A stretch of 13,960 nucleotides of DNA from Desulfuromonadaceae bacterium (GTDB lineage Bacteria > Desulfobacterota > Desulfuromonadia > Desulfuromonadales > Geopsychrobacteraceae): assembly GCA_013138655.1 (NCBI GenBank), contig WTCI01000212.1:1-13960 (forward strand), read 5' to 3'. The notes beneath the pieces are model-generated. The model had not been told where the DNA came from and searched no databases. It saw only the letters and a program-made list of their open reading frames with translations. The translations under genes were made by a program, and so were the position numbers. Shown piece by piece: positions 2,084 through 10,774 of the stretch. Every line of letters begins with the position of its first letter. The first letter of the stretch is position 1.

Positions 2084-2914
2084 ATGCAGGAACTGACCCT
2101 CGGCTATTCTCCTTGCCCAAACGACACTTTCATTTTTTATGGACTGATCCACGGCCGGATTCCCTGCCCGGGAGTGAGCTTTATCGAGCAACTGGAGGAT
2201 GTCGAAACGCTCAACCGATTGGCCCTTGAAGGCCGCCTCGATTTGACGAAAATCTCTTACCATGCCCTCGGGCACTTGCGACAGGACTACGCCCTGTTAC
2301 ACAGTGGCGGGGCACTCGGGCGGGGCTGCGGACCGCTGGTTGTCGCTCGAAAAGCAACCGACATGGCACAGCTGCGTGGCAAGAAAATCGCCATCCCCGG
2401 ACAGCTGACCACGGCCAACCTGCTGTTGCAACTCTATGGAGAAGGCTACGACAACCTGTTGGTCCTCCCATTTCACGAAATTATGGCAGCCGTGTCAGCC
2501 GGGCGGGCAGATGCGGGGGTCATCATCCACGAATCGCGTTTTACCTATCAACTGCACGGTCTGCAACAGGTGCTGGATCTCGGCCAATGGTGGGAAGAGG
2601 ATTCAGGATGCCCGATCCCCTTAGGAGGGATACTGGCCAAACGTTCCCTCGGCCATGAACTGATTCAACAGATTGATCAGGCGTTGCGCTCCAGCGTTGA
2701 ATTCGCCTTTGCCCATCCACAACAGCCGCAGGACTACATTCGCCGACATGCCCAGGAGTTGGCAGAAGATGTCGTCCGCAATCACATCGCTCTTTACGTC
2801 AACGATTTTTCCATCGATCTTGGCGACGCAGGCATTCAGGCCGTGGAAACGCTCTTCGCCCGCGCTGAACAACGCGGCATCATCCCTCCCTGTGATCTGC
2901 CGCTGTTTATTTAA
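2084..2914 (+). CDS. mqnD: 1,4-dihydroxy-6-naphthoate synthase (menaquinone biosynthesis)
   Basis: MqnD converts cyclic dehypoxanthine futalosine to 1,4-dihydroxy-6-naphthoate, the ring precursor of menaquinone in the futalosine pathway. The 276-aa product has the two-lobed, periplasmic-binding-protein-like organisation of the family: the SPCPNDTF signature at residues 9-16, KISYHALGHL at 56-65, and DAGVIIHESRFTY at 143-155, whose His149 corresponds to the proposed catalytic base. The ATG at 2084 is preferred over the TTG at 2081 because AAGGA (2073-2077) is then 6 bases upstream. The stop codon abuts a structured repeat that begins at once afterwards. mqnA, mqnC and mqnE, also needed for the pathway, are not in this window. 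Confidence 0.95.
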   Translation: MQELTLGYSPCPNDTFIFYGLIHGRIPCPGVSFIEQLEDVETLNRLALEGRLDLTKISYHALGHLRQDYALLHSGGALGRGCGPLVVARKATDMAQLRGKKIAIPGQLTTANLLLQLYGEGYDNLLVLPFHEIMAAVSAGRADAGVIIHESRFTYQLHGLQQVLDLGQWWEEDSGCPIPLGGILAKRSLGHELIQQIDQALRSSVEFAFAHPQQPQDYIRRHAQELAEDVVRNHIALYVNDFSIDLGDAGIQAVETLFARAEQRGIIPPCDLPLFI

Positions 2915-3055
2915 CCATTCAAGAACGGGTGCTGATGTGCCGGTGCCGCCCATTCCAAGGGCCGCATGACCCCATCCCTGGGGCTTGACTGTCGCCATCC
3001 GGGCGACAGACACCCTTTCCATGGGCATCACCGGCACCTCTTGCTGAATAGTTAC
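2915..3055. repeat. Structured dispersed repeat, copy 1 (MITE/REP-like, non-coding)
   Basis: About 141 bp, with a second copy at 7977-8132; a 52-base block (2972-3023 and 8049-8100) is identical in both. It folds on itself throughout: a 9-bp stem 2937-2945 with 3029-3037, further stems CCCAT/ATGGG and AAGGG/CCCTT inside it, and a central 8-bp hairpin 2989-2996 with 3002-3009. Ends are imperfect inverted repeats (TAACCATTC at 2912-2920 against AATAGTTAC at 3047-3055). TATTTAA occurs on both sides (2908-2914 and 3056-3062) and looks like a target duplication. Short open frames inside it are not genes. It may also act as a stem that ends or stabilises the mqn transcript. Confidence 0.8.
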
Positions 3056-5040: not shown

Positions 5041-5376
5041 GTGGCTGAGAAAAGGGAAATAAAACGGAAAAAAAAGCGTTTGAAGCTTCGCTTCGGGGTT
5101 GACTCCCCGAAGCGCGTTGCCTTTACCGAAGATATAAGTCATCGAGGGCTTTTCATCATAACCGGGCAGCCAGAGCGTCCTGGACAGAAGGTGCTGATTG
5201 AAATGCTGCTGCCGAATGAGGACACCGTCATCGTTCATGGGCGTGTCCAGTGGGCGAAAAAAGTTCCTCCTAACCTCATCCGGCTTGCCAATAAAGGGGG
5301 AATGGGTGTTCGTTTGCTCCACTTTGAATCTGGCGAAGAATCTTACCAACAGCTGGTTTATGAACTCCGGCATTGA
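5041..5376 (+). CDS. PilZ-domain protein, predicted c-di-GMP binder
   Basis: A single-domain 111-aa PilZ protein. Both parts of the cyclic-di-GMP binding signature are present: an Arg-rich RxxxR segment (RKKKR at residues 9-13, or R13-x3-R17) and DISHRG (DxSxxG) at 31-36, followed by a beta-barrel ending in GMGVRLL at 87-93. Proteins of this type change partner interactions when c-di-GMP binds. The start is GTG at 5041 with GGGAG 5-6 bases upstream; no better start is in frame. Its TGA (5374-5376) lies 11 bases before the ATG of the sigma54 activator, so the pair is almost certainly an operon. I infer that the PilZ protein may modulate that activator, but no sequence feature shows contact between them. 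Confidence 0.88.
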   Translation: MAEKREIKRKKKRLKLRFGVDSPKRVAFTEDISHRGLFIITGQPERPGQKVLIEMLLPNEDTVIVHGRVQWAKKVPPNLIRLANKGGMGVRLLHFESGEESYQQLVYELRH

Positions 5377-5387
5377 ATTTATTGTCG

Positions 5388-6815
5388 ATGGCTGATCCCC
5401 GGGAAAATCGAGAATATTTGCCGGCTGTCGCCCCGGATCTCATGTTGATTCGTTGGGGCCATGGCGAATGGCAGGTAAAGAGCCTGTCTGAGCGGCTGGC
5501 CGGTTGGCTGAAGGTCGATCCGGCCCAGGTCAGGGGCCGCTCCCCGCAACAATTTCTCCCCTCAGCAACCCCCTCCCTGGTTGATCTGGTCAGCGAAGTG
5601 CTTGAACAGGGGTACGACCTGACGGATGTCAAAGTACGTCTGCTGCCGGACCAACCGGAATTTCTGGCGGACATCCAGTTTGCCGGGTTGACCGATGATT
5701 ATCTCGGCCAGCTGGTGCGGATCAGCCTGCGACGGGAAACAACTGCCAGCAGACAGGAGGTCGGTTTTCGTAATCTGACTGGCGGCAGCCCGGCGATGCG
5801 TGAGGTTTTCCGTAAGATCCGCCTCTACGGTGCCTCCGATGCTGCGGTGATCATTACCGGAGAAACCGGTGCCGGCAAGGAACTGGTTGCCCAGGCTTTG
5901 CACGAAGAGAGCAATCGCCAGGGAAGACCCTTTGCCGTGCTCAACTGTACAGCGATCAGTGAACAGTTGCTCGAATCGGAACTGTTCGGCCATGAGCGGG
6001 GAGCCTTCACCGGTGCGCTGCGGGAACATCGCGGTTATTTTGAGCGGGCCGATGGCGGCACCCTGTTTCTGGACGAGATCGGCGATATGCCGTTGCATAT
6101 TCAGAGCAAGCTGCTGCGGGTGCTGGAGGATGGCCAGGTGCAGCGGGTTGGCGGTGAGAAAAGTCGGCAGGTGGATGTCCGGGTGATCGGGGCCACCAAT
6201 GTGCCCCTGGAACAGGCCGTTGCCGATCATCGCTTTCGCGCTGACCTTTACCACCGTCTGGCCGTTCTGCGGATTCATCTGCCTGCCTTGTGTGAACGGG
6301 TTGAGGATATCCCGTTGTTGGCCGATCTGTTTTTGCAGCAGTTTAATGTCAAGTACGGCAAAGGGGTACAGCGCCTGACCAGTGAAGCCATGCGACTGTT
6401 ACAATCCTACCGCTGGCCCGGCAATGTACGGGAGCTGCGTAACTTACTGGAGCGGATAGTTGTCGAGGCGGAAACTGAAGCAATCGGCGCCCGGGCTTTT
6501 GCCGAATGGATTCGTGAACGACAACAGTTTGCCCAGTCGCCGATCAATACTTCTTCGACTGAAAATCCACAAAACCTGCCGGTTGTCATTCCTTACGCTC
6601 AGCAGTCTTCGGACGAGGTGACTGTCGATGCCGCCCTGATTCCGGCCGGCCGGGGCCGCGGAATCAGGGCGGAGTTGTCGGAAGCCAATATCCGGGCCGC
6701 CTATCGTGCTGCGGACGGCAACCTTTCTGCTGCGGCTCGTCATCTCGGTGTGCATCGTGCCACCCTCTATCGTCATTTGCAGCGCTTGAACCTTTCCCGA
6801 GAACAGCTTTCCTGA
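5388..6815 (+). CDS. Sigma54-dependent transcriptional activator (PAS-like / AAA+ / Fis HTH)
   Basis: A 475-aa bacterial enhancer-binding protein. The N-terminus (about residues 15-115) looks like a PAS-type sensor rather than a response-regulator receiver. The central AAA+ domain is complete: Walker A GETGAGKE at 158-165, the sigma54-contacting GAFTGA loop at 205-210, Walker B GTLFLDEIG at 224-232, the arginine-finger segment FRADLYHRL at 283-291, and WPGNVREL at 343-350. After a linker, a Fis-type helix-turn-helix occupies about 430-470 (DGNLSAAARHLGVHRATLYRHL). It should hydrolyse ATP to open sigma54-polymerase complexes. The start is uncertain: ATG 5388 is chosen, but TTG 5373, overlapping the PilZ stop, is also in frame, and neither has a good ribosome site. 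Two small heat-shock genes follow, with a sigma54-like promoter, and are the likeliest targets. The signal sensed is unknown. Confidence 0.92.
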   Translation: MADPRENREYLPAVAPDLMLIRWGHGEWQVKSLSERLAGWLKVDPAQVRGRSPQQFLPSATPSLVDLVSEVLEQGYDLTDVKVRLLPDQPEFLADIQFAGLTDDYLGQLVRISLRRETTASRQEVGFRNLTGGSPAMREVFRKIRLYGASDAAVIITGETGAGKELVAQALHEESNRQGRPFAVLNCTAISEQLLESELFGHERGAFTGALREHRGYFERADGGTLFLDEIGDMPLHIQSKLLRVLEDGQVQRVGGEKSRQVDVRVIGATNVPLEQAVADHRFRADLYHRLAVLRIHLPALCERVEDIPLLADLFLQQFNVKYGKGVQRLTSEAMRLLQSYRWPGNVRELRNLLERIVVEAETEAIGARAFAEWIRERQQFAQSPINTSSTENPQNLPVVIPYAQQSSDEVTVDAALIPAGRGRGIRAELSEANIRAAYRAADGNLSAAARHLGVHRATLYRHLQRLNLSREQLS

Positions 6816-6835
6816 ACTTTTTTCGTTGTGCCCTC

Positions 6836-6893
6836 TTGCAACGTCGCACTTGTCGCATCTAAGTGCCTTCTTGCGACAGGTGCGACGTTGCAA
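6836..6893. promoter_or_regulatory. 58-bp inverted repeat, probable enhancer (UAS) for the sigma54 activator
   Basis: Two 22-base arms (6836-6857 and 6872-6893) are inverted copies with 21 of 22 matches, separated by 14 bases. Each arm contains TGC-R-ACGT-Y-GCA, itself a near-palindrome (TGCAACGTCGCA on the left, TGCGACGTTGCA on the right), plus an inner half-site (TGTCGCA / TGCGACA). The repeat begins 20 bases after the activator's stop. The arms centre about 105 and 141 bases upstream of the start predicted from the sigma54 promoter, typical enhancer distance. No T-run follows on either strand, so it is not a standard terminator. Confidence 0.65.
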
Positions 6894-6960
6894 AATCTCA
6901 TACTGCTTTTGCTGTAACTTGTAACTTACTGAAAATATAGCGATATTTATTTTTATAAGG

Positions 6961-6977
6961 TTGGCACTGCTTTTGAA
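6961..6977 (+). promoter_or_regulatory. Candidate sigma54 (-24/-12) promoter of the small heat-shock operon
   Basis: TTGGCACTGCTTTTGAA matches the sigma54 consensus (YTGGCAC...TTGCW) at the whole -24 box and at TTG of the -12 box, with correct GG-N10-spacing. The one flaw is A in place of C in the -12 GC dinucleotide, which would weaken but need not abolish it. The predicted start is near 6987, leaving a leader of about 50 bases. An AT-rich stretch (about 6930-6958) lies between it and the inverted repeat, as is common where DNA must bend. No CIRCE (HrcA) element was seen. Confidence 0.55.
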
Positions 6978-7036
6978 GTATCAATCGGCAACATCAGAGA
7001 AACAACACCGAGAGATATTCTAAAGGAGGATAGACA

Positions 7037-7465
7037 ATGTTCGCACGACAGATGATGAACGAAATCGACAATTTTCAATGTGAGATCGAGCAACTTTTCC
7101 GTGGCCTCGGATTCAATGAACGTTTTGATGTCCGGATGCAGGGTTTGCAGCTCAAAACAGAAGACCGGGGTGAGGCTGTTCAGGTTGAAGCGGTTCTGCC
7201 GGGGCTCGATGTGGAGAAGCTTGATATCAGCGTCCTCGGCCGCCGCATGACCCTTTCGGGTGAATTTGCCGAGGTTGAAATTCCCGAGGATGCTGTCTGG
7301 CATCGTCGTGAGCGGTATGTCGGCACGTTTCAACAGTCGTTCCAGCTGCCGACTGAGGTGGATACCGACAACGTTAGCGCTGAGTACAAAAACGGCATCT
7401 TGAGTATCAATCTGCCGAAAGCAGCGTCAGCGTTGCCGAAAAAAATCAGTATCAAAACTGCTTAA
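7037..7465 (+). CDS. Small heat-shock protein (Hsp20 / alpha-crystallin family), first of a pair
   Basis: A 142-aa ATP-independent chaperone that holds unfolding proteins as oligomers for later refolding by Hsp70 and ClpB. The alpha-crystallin domain spans about residues 40-130 and ends with the family signature NGILSINLPK (119-128). A C-terminal I-x-I anchor (ISI, 137-139), used for oligomer assembly, is present. The N-terminal arm is short and phenylalanine-rich. The ATG at 7037 has a strong AAAGGAGG site 7 bases upstream. A second Hsp20 gene follows after 49 bases. It lies directly downstream of the sigma54-like promoter and the probable enhancer, suggesting control by the upstream activator. 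Identity as Hsp20 is secure; the regulation is inferred. Confidence 0.95.
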   Translation: MFARQMMNEIDNFQCEIEQLFRGLGFNERFDVRMQGLQLKTEDRGEAVQVEAVLPGLDVEKLDISVLGRRMTLSGEFAEVEIPEDAVWHRRERYVGTFQQSFQLPTEVDTDNVSAEYKNGILSINLPKAASALPKKISIKTA

Positions 7466-7514: not shown

Positions 7515-7886
7515 ATGAGTGACAAGCAGATGACAACCGAGGAAAACGGTTCTTTGAATAAAATGGCCCGGGCTCGCTCGATTTATCGCCAGACACCGGC
7601 TGTCGATATCTTTGAAACGAGCGATGAACTGGTTTTGCTGGCCGATCTGCCGGGGGTCGAGGAGCAGGGTTTACAGATCGAAGTTTCCCGCGGGGTACTT
7701 ACCCTCGAAGCTGAAAAAGTATCTGAAGGCGCTGTAAAAACAACCTATTACCGGCAGTTCAAACTCTCCGAGAGGATCGCTGCGGATGCCGGAGAGGCGG
7801 CTTTAAAAGATGGGGTACTGACCTTGCGGTTACCGAAAAGTGCCGAGGCGAAGCCGAAAAAAATCGCCGTCAAGACGCTGCATTAA
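7515..7886 (+). CDS. Small heat-shock protein (Hsp20 family), second of the pair
   Basis: A 123-aa Hsp20 protein, only distantly similar to its neighbour. The alpha-crystallin domain runs from about residue 28 (PAVDIFETSDELVLLADLPGV) to DGVLTLRLPK (99-108). The C-terminal anchor reads I-A-V (117-119) instead of the classic I-x-I. The YYRQFKLSE segment (78-86) matches the family's FxRxFxLP strand with Ser in place of Pro. It has its own AAGGAG site (7503-7508), is co-directional with the first gene, and ends just before a strong terminator, so the two form a short operon. Paired, divergent Hsp20 proteins often make mixed oligomers; that is not shown here. Confidence 0.94.
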   Translation: MSDKQMTTEENGSLNKMARARSIYRQTPAVDIFETSDELVLLADLPGVEEQGLQIEVSRGVLTLEAEKVSEGAVKTTYYRQFKLSERIAADAGEAALKDGVLTLRLPKSAEAKPKKIAVKTLH

Positions 7887-7894
7887 TACAGTCG

Positions 7895-7921
7895 GGCCGG
7901 GGTCTCCACCCCGGCCTTTTT
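7895..7921 (+). terminator. Rho-independent terminator of the Hsp20 operon
   Basis: A perfect 9-bp GC-rich stem (7895-7903 with 7908-7916), a CTCC tetraloop and a T5 tract (7917-7921) lie 8 bases after the second Hsp20 stop. It separates the Hsp20 operon from clpB. Confidence 0.93.
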
Positions 7922-7922
7922 C

Positions 7923-7953
7923 TTGCGGAAATTCCATCCGCAGGCGCTATACT
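7923..7953 (+). promoter_or_regulatory. Weak candidate promoter for clpB, upstream of the repeat
   Basis: TATACT (7948-7953) is a good -10, but the paired TTGCGG (7923-7928) is a poor -35 at a long 19-base spacing. If used, transcription would start near 7960 and carry the whole structured repeat in the clpB leader. No sigma32-type or CIRCE heat-shock element was found here. Confidence 0.25.
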
Positions 7954-7976
7954 TTGATGGATTCGCAAAAAAATCG

Positions 7977-8132
7977 TAACTATTTAGAACGGGTGCTGAT
8001 GTGCTGGCGCCGCCCATTCCAAGGGCCGCCGATTGAATGAATACATGGCCATCCCTGGGGCTTGACTGTCGCCATCCGGGCGACAGACACCCTTTCCATG
8101 TGCATCCCCAGCACATCTTGCTGAATAGTTAC
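7977..8132. repeat. Structured dispersed repeat, copy 2, upstream of clpB
   Basis: About 156 bp and homologous to 2915-3055, with a 13-base insertion near 8033-8045. Its termini are a perfect inverted repeat, GTAACTATT (7976-7984) and AATAGTTAC (8124-8132). A near-exact 9-base direct repeat, AAAAAATCG, flanks it (7968-7976 and 8133-8141), as expected of a target-site duplication. The outer stem 8001-8009 / 8106-8114 keeps a base pair that changed on both sides relative to copy 1 (C-G at 2941/3033, T-A at 8005/8110), although another pair is lost. The central 8-bp hairpin (8066-8073 / 8079-8086) is unchanged. No coding content. Confidence 0.85.
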
Positions 8133-8158
8133 AAAAAATCGAAAGACAGGAGTGAGTG

Positions 8159-10774
8159 ATGATTGATCTTAACCGGACCACGCAAAAAGTTCAGGAAGCT
8201 CTTCAGGGAGCACAGGCTTTGGCTCTTCGTTTCGGTCATGCTGAAATTGACGGTGAGCATTTACTCTTGGCGCTCTGCGAACAGCAGGACGGTTTGACCC
8301 CACGGTTGATGCAGAAACTGGCGGTGCCGCATGACGAGCTCATTGCCGGATTGCGCAAGGACCTGGAATCGCGACCAAGGATCAGTGGCCCCGGTGCCGA
8401 TAGCGGCAAGCTGTACGCCAGTCGTCGTTTGAGTAACCTGCTGTTGCAGGCGGAAGCAGAAGCCAAACAGTTAAAAGACGAGTACATCAGCGTCGAGCAC
8501 CTGCTGCTCGCCACGGTGGCTGAAGAAGAGCGGACCGCCGCCGGGAGATTATTACGTCAGCTGGGGATCGATCGAGATAAGCTGTTACAGGGGTTAACGC
8601 AGATCCGTGGCCATCAGCGAGTCACCAGCCAGGATCCGGAAGAGACCTACGAGGCCCTGGAAAAATATGGCCGTGACCTGGTTGAAGAGGTGAAGAACGG
8701 TAAGCTCGACCCGGTCATCGGTCGTGATGAAGAGATCCGTCGGATTATTCGCATTCTCTCCCGGAAGACCAAGAACAACCCGGTGCTGATCGGTGAACCG
8801 GGAGTTGGTAAAACAGCCATTGTTGAAGGTCTGGCTCACCGGATTGTTCGTGGCGACGTCCCCGAAGGCTTGAAAGGCAAGACGGTTTTTTCCCTCGATA
8901 TGAGTGCCTTAGTCGCCGGGGCCAAGTAGCGGGGTGAATTTGAGGAACGTCTCAAGGCGGTCCTCAAGGAAATCCACGACAGTGAGGGGCAGATTCTGTT
9001 GTTCATTGACGAACTGCATACCATTGTCGGGACCGGAAAGAGTGAAGGGGCCATCGACGCCGGGAATATGCTCAAGCCGATGCTGGCACGCGGTGAGTTG
9101 CATTGTATCGGCGCGACCACTCTGGATGAATATCGCCAGTACCTGGAAAAAGACCCGGCTCTGGAGCGGCGTTTTCAGCCGGTGCTGGTGGAGCAGCCGA
9201 ATATTGAAGAGACCATCAGCATTTTACGGGGGCTGAAAGAGCGTTTCGAAGTCTATCACGGGGTGCGGATTCAGGATAATTCCCTGGTTGCGGCGGCCGA
9301 GCTGAGTCATCGCTATATTGCCGATCGTTTTCTGCCCGACAAGGCGATCGATCTGATTGATGAGGCTTGCGCGACTATCCGCACCGAAATCGATTCCATG
9401 CCCGCCGAACTGGATGCGATCACGCGGCGGCTGATGCAACTGGAGATTGAAGAGGCGGCGTTGAAGAAGGAAAAAGATGCCGCCAGCCATGATCGGTTAC
9501 AATGCTTGCAGAAAGAGCTGGCTGACCTGAGAGAACAGAATGCTGCCCTGTCCGCACAATGGCAACTGGAAAAAGGGGGTATCCGCTCTGTGCAGCAACT
9601 GCGCGAAGAGATTGAACAGTTGCGGTTGGCGATTGCCGAGGCTGAACGAGCCTACGATCTCAATCGGGCTGCCGAGCTCAAACATGGCACGTTGCCGAAG
9701 TTGGAACAGCAGCTGAAAGCTCAGGAAACACAACTTAAGCAGACGGATAATACGGCAAAAATGCTGCGTGAAGAAGTGACCGAAGAAGAGATTGCCGAGA
9801 TCGTTTCCCGTTGGACCGGGATACCGCTGACCCGGTTGGTGGAAAGCGAGCGGGAAAAACTGCTGAAACTGGATGAGATTCTTCACCAGCGGGTGATCGG
9901 GCAGGACGAGGCGGTTCAGCGGGTTGCCGATGCGGTGATCCGTGCGCGGGCCGGGGTCAAGGACCCACGGCGGCCGATCGGTTCCTTTATTTTCCTCGGC
10001 CCGACCGGGGTTGGAAAAACCGAGCTGGCACGGGCACTGACGGAAGCCTTATTCGACAGCGAAGAGAACCTGATCCGCATCGACATGTCCGAGTATATGG
10101 AAAGACATACGGTCAGCCGACTGCTTGGGGCCCCTCCCGGCTACATCGGCTATGAAGAGGGTGGGCAATTGACCGAGGCAGTGCGGCGGCAGCCGTATGC
10201 GGTGATTCTGTTTGACGAGATCGAAAAAGCGCATCCGGATGTGTTCAATGTCTTGCTGCAGATTCTCGATGATGGTCATGCCACGGATGCCAAGGGGCGG
10301 ACCGTCAGCTTCAAGAATGCGGTGATCATCATGACCTCGAACATTGCTTCACCGCAGTTGCTGGAAGGGATTCGCGACGGTGAAATTCCGGAATCGGTCC
10401 GGCTGCAGGTCGAGGCGGAGTTGCGGCGCAGTTTCCGACCTGAATTTCTCAACCGGGTCGATGACATAATCATCTTCAAACCGCTCAGCAGAGAGGATAT
10501 CCGGCAGATTGTTCTGCTGCTGATCGAGGAATTGCGACAACGACTGGCCGAACGCAGACTGGACCTGGAATTGTCGCCCGCCGCCGCTGATTTTATTGCC
10601 GAAACCGCCTACGACCCGGTCTATGGTGCGCGGCCGCTGAAACGATTTTTGCAGCATCAACTGGAAACCCGGATCGGGCGTGCCCTGATCAGCGGGGAAG
10701 TGGCGGAGGGAGGGACTTTGCAGGTTGATGTTGAGAAGGGGCAGTTAGTGGTCAAGGCCTCTGTGCCCTCTTGA
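8159..10774 (+). pseudogene. clpB: ClpB disaggregase, interrupted by one in-frame TAG
   Basis: ClpB is the hexameric AAA+ disaggregase that works with DnaK and small heat-shock proteins. The 872-codon frame is collinear with the family: N domain (1-145), NBD1 Walker A GEPGVGKT (212-219), NBD1 Walker B LLFIDE, a coiled-coil middle domain (about 410-540), NBD2 Walker A GPTGVGKT (614-621), Walker B VILFDEIE (682-689) and the [13 protein letters not shown] pore loop. Codon 257 (8927-8929) is TAG where relatives have Tyr in [14 protein letters not shown], the NBD1 pore-loop tyrosine. No frameshift occurs; the frame continues intact to 10774. Termination there would leave a 256-aa fragment and separate the NBD1 Walker A from its Walker B. 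The start ATG 8159 has AGGAG 6 bases upstream. Nonsense mutation, sequencing error and stop read-through cannot be told apart here. Confidence 0.9.

Follow-up and report, generated by a model that had tools for sequence, protein, structure and literature searches.

A sigma54 activator, its predicted upstream sites and a −24/−12 promoter very probably make up a dedicated regulon for the Hsp20-Hsp20-ClpB disaggregase set, a circuit that we read from the window (the whole stretch of DNA analyzed here, 13,960 nucleotides) and from related genomes. The argument rests on the anatomy of the locus, its conservation, the co-occurrence of activator and sites across genomes, and the fact that such sites stand in front of hsp20 and clpB even at places lacking a preceding activator gene. 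A first-pass annotation had described a small heat-shock operon apparently under sigma54 control. Comparative sequence analysis supports this interpretation in a widened form: hsp20 genes do lie behind a sigma54-type switch, and the predicted target is the larger set hsp20-hsp20-clpB.

In the window, a PilZ-domain gene on the forward strand (5041–5376; Pfam PF07238, E=6.7e-7) with the c-di-GMP-type motifs RxxxR (RLKLR) and DxSxxG (DISHRG) adjoins a sigma54 activator gene (bEBP; forward strand, ATG at 5388, stop at 6815). The activator combines a weak PAS-like N-terminus, an AAA+ domain (Sigma54_activat PF00158, E=7.9e-69) with GAFTGA in its translation, and a C-terminal Fis-type helix-turn-helix (HTH; PF02954, E=3.3e-7), confirming the earlier claim of a sigma54 activator with GAFTGA and Fis HTH directly upstream. 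It is followed on the same strand by two genes for small heat-shock proteins, hsp20-1 (7037–7465; PF00011, E=2e-18) and hsp20-2 (7515–7886; PF00011, E=1.4e-10), and by a clpB disaggregase frame (8156–10774). The genome also encodes rpoN and other bEBP genes.

The predicted sigma54 promoter TTGGCACTGCTTTTGAA lies at 6961–6977 on the forward strand, an exact letter match located precisely where it had been annotated, with its 3’ end 59 bases before the hsp20-1 ATG (7037) and a predicted transcription start near 6987. Its −24 box (TGGCAY with GG) is intact and the −24/−12 spacing is correct, as claimed, but the annotated GG-N10-GC has to be amended to GG-N10-GA, as the −12 box reads TTGA with the usual C replaced by A. 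Upstream are two palindromic 12-mers that are kept in relatives and represent putative activator sites without strand: UAS 1 (TGCAACGTCGCA, 6837–6848) and UAS 2 (TGCGACGTTGCA, 6881–6892), 44 bp apart from start to start. These are the two dyad operators of the first-pass annotation, which had placed them about 141 and 105 bp before the start; their centers are found ~144 and ~100 bp upstream of it. Both palindromes fall inside a 22-bp inverted repeat (arms 6836–6857 and 6872–6893, 95% complementary), and between UAS 2 and the promoter lies a candidate IHF-like block identified by pattern (TAACTTACTGAAAA, 6922–6935, forward strand). The composite pattern ACGTYGCA-N62-92-TTGGYAY-N6-TG occurs once in the 2.45-Mb genome of origin, and its reversed control does not occur; the arrangement of −24/−12 element and UAS in the window is not chance.

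We searched for the activator in 147 related genomes, the genome of origin included, and found an ortholog in 102 (E <= 2.4e-90; in G011 seen only close to a contig end), with best matches of about 1e-72 to 1e-80 in the remaining 45. Across 101 loci (100 fetched regions of relatives plus the window), the order activator, hsp20, hsp20, clpB is repeated in many families; elsewhere clpB directly follows the activator, and in some loci the activator stands apart from chaperone genes. An hsp20 (62 loci) or clpB (11 loci) start lies within 1200 bp after the activator in 73 of the 101, and the other 28, in which no hsp20 or clpB was found within that distance or the contig ends, were excluded from the promoter count. 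Using a purpose-made scheme that weights known-consensus positions and gives no weight to the base after TTG, we detected a −24/−12 site scoring at least 0.85 in 71/73 loci (dinucleotide-shuffle mean 7.9) and at least 0.93 in 66/73 (shuffles 0.45). Thus the motif is kept in relatives that preserve the gene order, the comparison that the earlier annotation had proposed for its sigma54 reading. Two loci score under 0.85, L127 and L086, and the latter has a TTGGCAT site outside the stretch scored.

The upstream sites are similarly widespread. In 60/73 loci a UAS matches with no more than one mismatch (dinucleotide shuffles 0.05), and 53/73 have a pair in which neither member has more than two (shuffles 0); these counts come from related genomes and are not independent. 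Spacing within the pair is bimodal, 41–46 bp in 30 loci and 31–34 bp in 23, corresponding to ~4 and ~3 helical turns; the window has the ~4-turn form, and ~3 turns are found in other families. The second UAS starts 79–84 bp before TTGG in 55 of the 67 loci measured.

The departure from the −12 consensus, a point that counts against the regulon, recurs throughout these loci. The canonical sigma54 −12 element has C after TTG, which is common though not absolute, and the base at this position in the 71 promoters is A in 38, T in 29, G in 4 and C in none. Among 63 generic YTGGCAY-N5-TTG matches from ten genomes of the genus, many of them perhaps non-promoters and one of them an hsp20 site, C follows TTG in 35. 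The predicted −12 element of the regulon is therefore TTGW. A block of the form [CT]AA[CGT]-N3-YYGAWW occurs in 42/71 loci, 38 of these at 39–41 bp before TTGG, against a letter-shuffled mean of 0.8 for a pattern derived from the same loci. We offer its resemblance to a reverse-read IHF site as a suggestion only; hsp20-type gene expression is raised in IHF mutants of G. sulfurreducens, according to the accessible text of PMC7962754.

Genome-wide, the composite pattern has 76 matches in 70/147 genomes, compared with 11 for the pattern read backwards. We fetched 34 match regions, picked as mostly distant from the activator. In 16 of them (L242, L246, L248, L249, L251, L253, L255, L258, L259, L261, L262, L265–L267, L273 and L274) the fetched upstream stretch holds no activator homolog and the match precedes hsp20-hsp20, hsp20-hsp20-clpB or clpB. 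Within this group, the activator lies 4–5 kb upstream on the same strand in L266 and L274, and L261, L267 and L273 come from genomes in which no activator was found; in L261 and L265–L267 the longest ORF called for hsp20 already starts upstream of the site, and translation must in truth begin further downstream. Three further matches before hsp20 adjoin an activator piece (L263, L264, L272) and were kept out of the 16, seven have no hsp20 or clpB start downstream (L254, L256, L257, L268–L271), two are cut by a contig end (L260, L122), and six follow a different activator.

These last six (L243–L245, L247, L250 and L252) come from one other family, f18, in which a second sigma54 activator is followed, at about 1500–1607, by a GTTGCA-NN-TGCAAC-like match and a TTGGCAY promoter. 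In L250, the site is followed by a small ORF that we take to be NifX-like and by a presumably nitroreductase-like ORF.

Several genomes carry split operons, with an activator-linked clpB and a distant hsp20 pair that each have one site (for example L070 and L255 in G056; L093 and L253 in G072). The predicted regulon survives operon splitting, and the presence of sites before hsp20 and clpB away from the activator, split operons included, is our strongest argument that they go with the target genes. The same observation bears on the dyad in the window. Its 22-bp arms lie right behind the activator stop codon, as would be expected if the dyad were mainly a terminator or RNA hairpin of the activator gene, the −24/−12 match were incidental and hsp20 used another promoter. 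We rejected this reading, which we find scarcely credible, on three grounds: we obtained no terminator or sigma70-type promoter call within 6700–7100, the palindromes have been conserved with two different spacings, and they also stand before hsp20 or clpB where no activator gene precedes.

Sites and activator also co-occur across genomes. The pattern is found before hsp20 or clpB in 58/102 activator-bearing versus 4/45 activator-less genomes (Fisher p = 1.9e-8, a value that overstates the association because the genomes are related); in three of the 58 (G005, G095 and G112) the contig ends before the next gene. Counting against the regulon, the strict pattern is absent before these genes in the other 44 activator-bearing genomes. 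A promoter of CTGG type, a weaker palindrome or a broken contig accounts for part of this group, and part of it has other genes after the activator. As a control, we inspected 16 of the 45 activator-less genomes, with upstream stretches of ~0.2 kb (L320), 1 kb (L319) and at least 2.5 kb in the other 14. All 16 possess clpB, and the fetched stretches upstream of it contain no UAS (at most one mismatch) and no homolog of the regulon’s hsp20 genes in any of them. The best −24/−12 scores in this control, 0.89 and 0.85, both come from positions no more than 15 bp away from where clpB is called to start.

This distribution speaks to whether the sites might serve another Fis-type activator, with the adjacent gene merely a neighbor. 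The further bEBP genes of the genome would allow it, as would four genomes that have a site before hsp20 and in which no intact activator was found (G020, with pieces only, G043, G070 and G100), although all four may reflect assembly gaps. Given that site and ortholog co-occur and that the UAS is missing before clpB in every activator-less genome checked, we consider such a substitution quite improbable. In G020 (L272), where the activator is present in pieces only, the UAS-promoter pattern and hsp20-hsp20-clpB are still there.

We then considered other routes of heat-shock control, none of which the first-pass annotation had seen at this locus. Consistent with its statement on sigma32, no RpoH above cut-off was found in the 93%-complete draft genome of origin, where the best RpoH match scores higher with RpoS (345 bits, cut-off 394) than with RpoH (151 bits, cut-off 323). 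Of the 147 genomes, 93 have a match above the RpoH cut-off: 0/44 in the window’s family, a set with 12 genomes that are 99–100% complete and of which one is a single contig, versus 93/103 elsewhere. The simplest reading of these profile scores is a single RpoH loss in the family’s ancestor, one event rather than 44. Since RpoH was not found in the family, sigma54 may stand in for sigma32 there, and the circuit probably replaces sigma32 for these genes. HrcA/CIRCE control of hsp20 was rejected, as no exact CIRCE precedes the gene; in agreement with the annotation, the single exact CIRCE that the genome contains stands before groES on a different contig. Likewise, we rejected a ROSE-type RNA thermometer, which the annotation had not seen either: the window has no Rfam match at gathering score, and the predicted 5’ UTR shows no unusual folding (z = 0.18).

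The N-terminus of the activator is the predicted point of signal input. Profile searches of this region returned no receiver-domain match and a weak PAS_4 match below cut-off (E=0.0044); PAS_4 matches at E <= 0.1 occur in 15/41 diverse members of the activator group. Against solved structures, the 41-member N-terminal profile gave weak matches, the best at E 0.043 (an augmin subunit) and bacteriophytochromes from 0.049. Across 395 genomes of the phylum, the N-terminal-domain profile matched 15: nine, all from the order, gave strong matches, and the other six only reached E values between 2e-4 and 9e-4; as the strong matches are confined to the order, the activator looks order-specific. A second, weak match to this domain, with an internal TGA, is present in G056 (L293; G056:C1:3534139-3534390). 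The activator reached no NCBIfam cut-off among 25 of the 28 matched models, the psp model falling below its own. A broader search for relatives was set aside as uninformative, since the 80 loci kept were generic AAA-domain relatives (identity 36–56%, mostly over the AAA region).

In the window’s family, 33 of 38 loci have a PilZ homolog in front of the activator, and two of the remaining five begin so close to a contig end that such a gene could have been cut off. Of the 33 homologs, 32 have RxxxR and 32 have [DN]xSxxG. No PilZ gene was found in 63 loci of other families with the window’s PilZ as query, a search that could miss a divergent one. We judge the chances evenly divided as to whether the whole family lost sigma32 and placed Hsp20-Hsp20-ClpB under a dedicated, order-specific sigma54 activator, possibly c-di-GMP-tuned via PilZ.

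In the mechanism that we propose, the single-component activator would bind the two palindromes as dimers, with TGCGACGTCGCA as its predicted target site. Dimers spaced ~4 turns apart here and ~3 elsewhere would then assemble an oligomeric ring, and IHF or a similar protein may bend the AT-rich DNA between UAS and promoter. At TTGGCAY-N5-TTGWA, the GAFTGA loop would touch sigma54-RNA polymerase, and the promoter for hsp20-hsp20, plus clpB in many genomes, would be opened by ATP hydrolysis. The PAS-like N-terminal domain would receive the input, in the window’s family perhaps together with the neighboring PilZ protein, and heat or unfolded protein is the presumed signal. The unit might also be real and answer to a different cue (redox, envelope, or c-di-GMP by way of PilZ), with Hsp20 and ClpB serving in another stress programme; the PAS-like N-terminus and the PilZ gene with its c-di-GMP-type motifs beside the activator in most of the family’s loci would fit such a cue. 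Yet all 19 of the 19 pattern matches that have this UAS type and a query-recognized next gene precede hsp20 or clpB, and the regulon extends to many of the other families in which PilZ was not found. We regard a different signal as a tenable but somewhat doubtful alternative to the heat or unfolded-protein signal presumed here.

In the window, a terminator-like hairpin lies downstream of hsp20-2 at about 7895–7925, and such a hairpin separates hsp20-2 from clpB in 19 of 59 comparable loci, the window included. One copy of a ~165 bp repeat element with inverted ends also sits between the two genes (7965–8145; another at 2912–3055), and the element has 34 matches in the genome, itself included and some of them short. 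The clpB frame is interrupted by an in-frame TAG at 8927–8929, giving ORFs 8156–8929 and 8999–10774, both matched by TIGR03346; the frame stays open to 10774, and the TAG may mark a pseudogene, result from an assembly error or truly interrupt the gene. Because hairpin and repeat precede clpB and clpB is interrupted, the promoter at 6961–6977 may not drive clpB in the window.

Chaperone induction in this lineage has so far been credited to sigma32 and HrcA: Rodionov 2004 (PMC545781) attributes the heat-shock response of delta-proteobacteria to sigma32 and CIRCE, and clpB and ibp are absent from its main text. Those regulons resemble the one proposed here in governing chaperone genes of the same lineage, with CIRCE before groES in the genome of origin, and differ from it in that the window’s family has no RpoH above cut-off. 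Counting against the regulon, the accessible text of Leang 2009 (PMC2725144) reports changed expression of chaperone genes in an RpoN+ G. sulfurreducens strain and no RpoN element for that class. The main text of Kazakov 2015 on Desulfovibrio vulgaris (PMC4641369) does not mention hsp20; its accessible text states that an attempt to delete rpoN in G. sulfurreducens was unsuccessful. In its accessible text, a 2025 sigma54 survey (PMC12316311) predicts sigma54 promoters for genes that include IbpA, GroEL and DnaK, in clusters enriched in Planctomycetota and Bacteroidota and with no ClpB in the main text. In the open-licence literature, supplements aside, we found no report of a dedicated Hsp20-ClpB sigma54 regulon. 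If correct, the circuit would add a third route, an ATP-dependent, enhancer-driven heat-shock switch that is silent until its activator spends ATP, in a family in which sigma32 was not found. Its activator is defined, its site spans 12 bp and its start is predicted, and all three are open to immediate testing in cultivable members of the order.

The first-pass annotation had invoked E. coli ibpB as a precedent, a gene that has, to our knowledge, no adjacent dedicated activator. The precedent is borne out by the accessible text of PMC4316790, which describes a sigma54-dependent promoter upstream of this small heat-shock gene; there, ibpAB is a sigma32-regulated operon, not an Hsp20-ClpB regulon. 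In Myxococcus xanthus HsfBA-lonD, an NtrC-like activator likewise directly controls a heat-shock gene, as stated in the accessible part of PMC9109919, but HsfA is a phosphorelay response regulator with lonD as target, whereas no receiver domain was found here and the predicted targets are Hsp20 and ClpB. Sigma54-type control of a heat-shock gene is already known from ibpB and lonD. PspF differs from the activator described here in that its function is in membrane stress and it is not known to have an N-terminal sensor domain, and the psp model stays below its cut-off for the window’s activator. Nevertheless, PspF-psp shares the principle of a dedicated sigma54 activator beside its own stress operon, and the −12 box of pspA is also TTGT.
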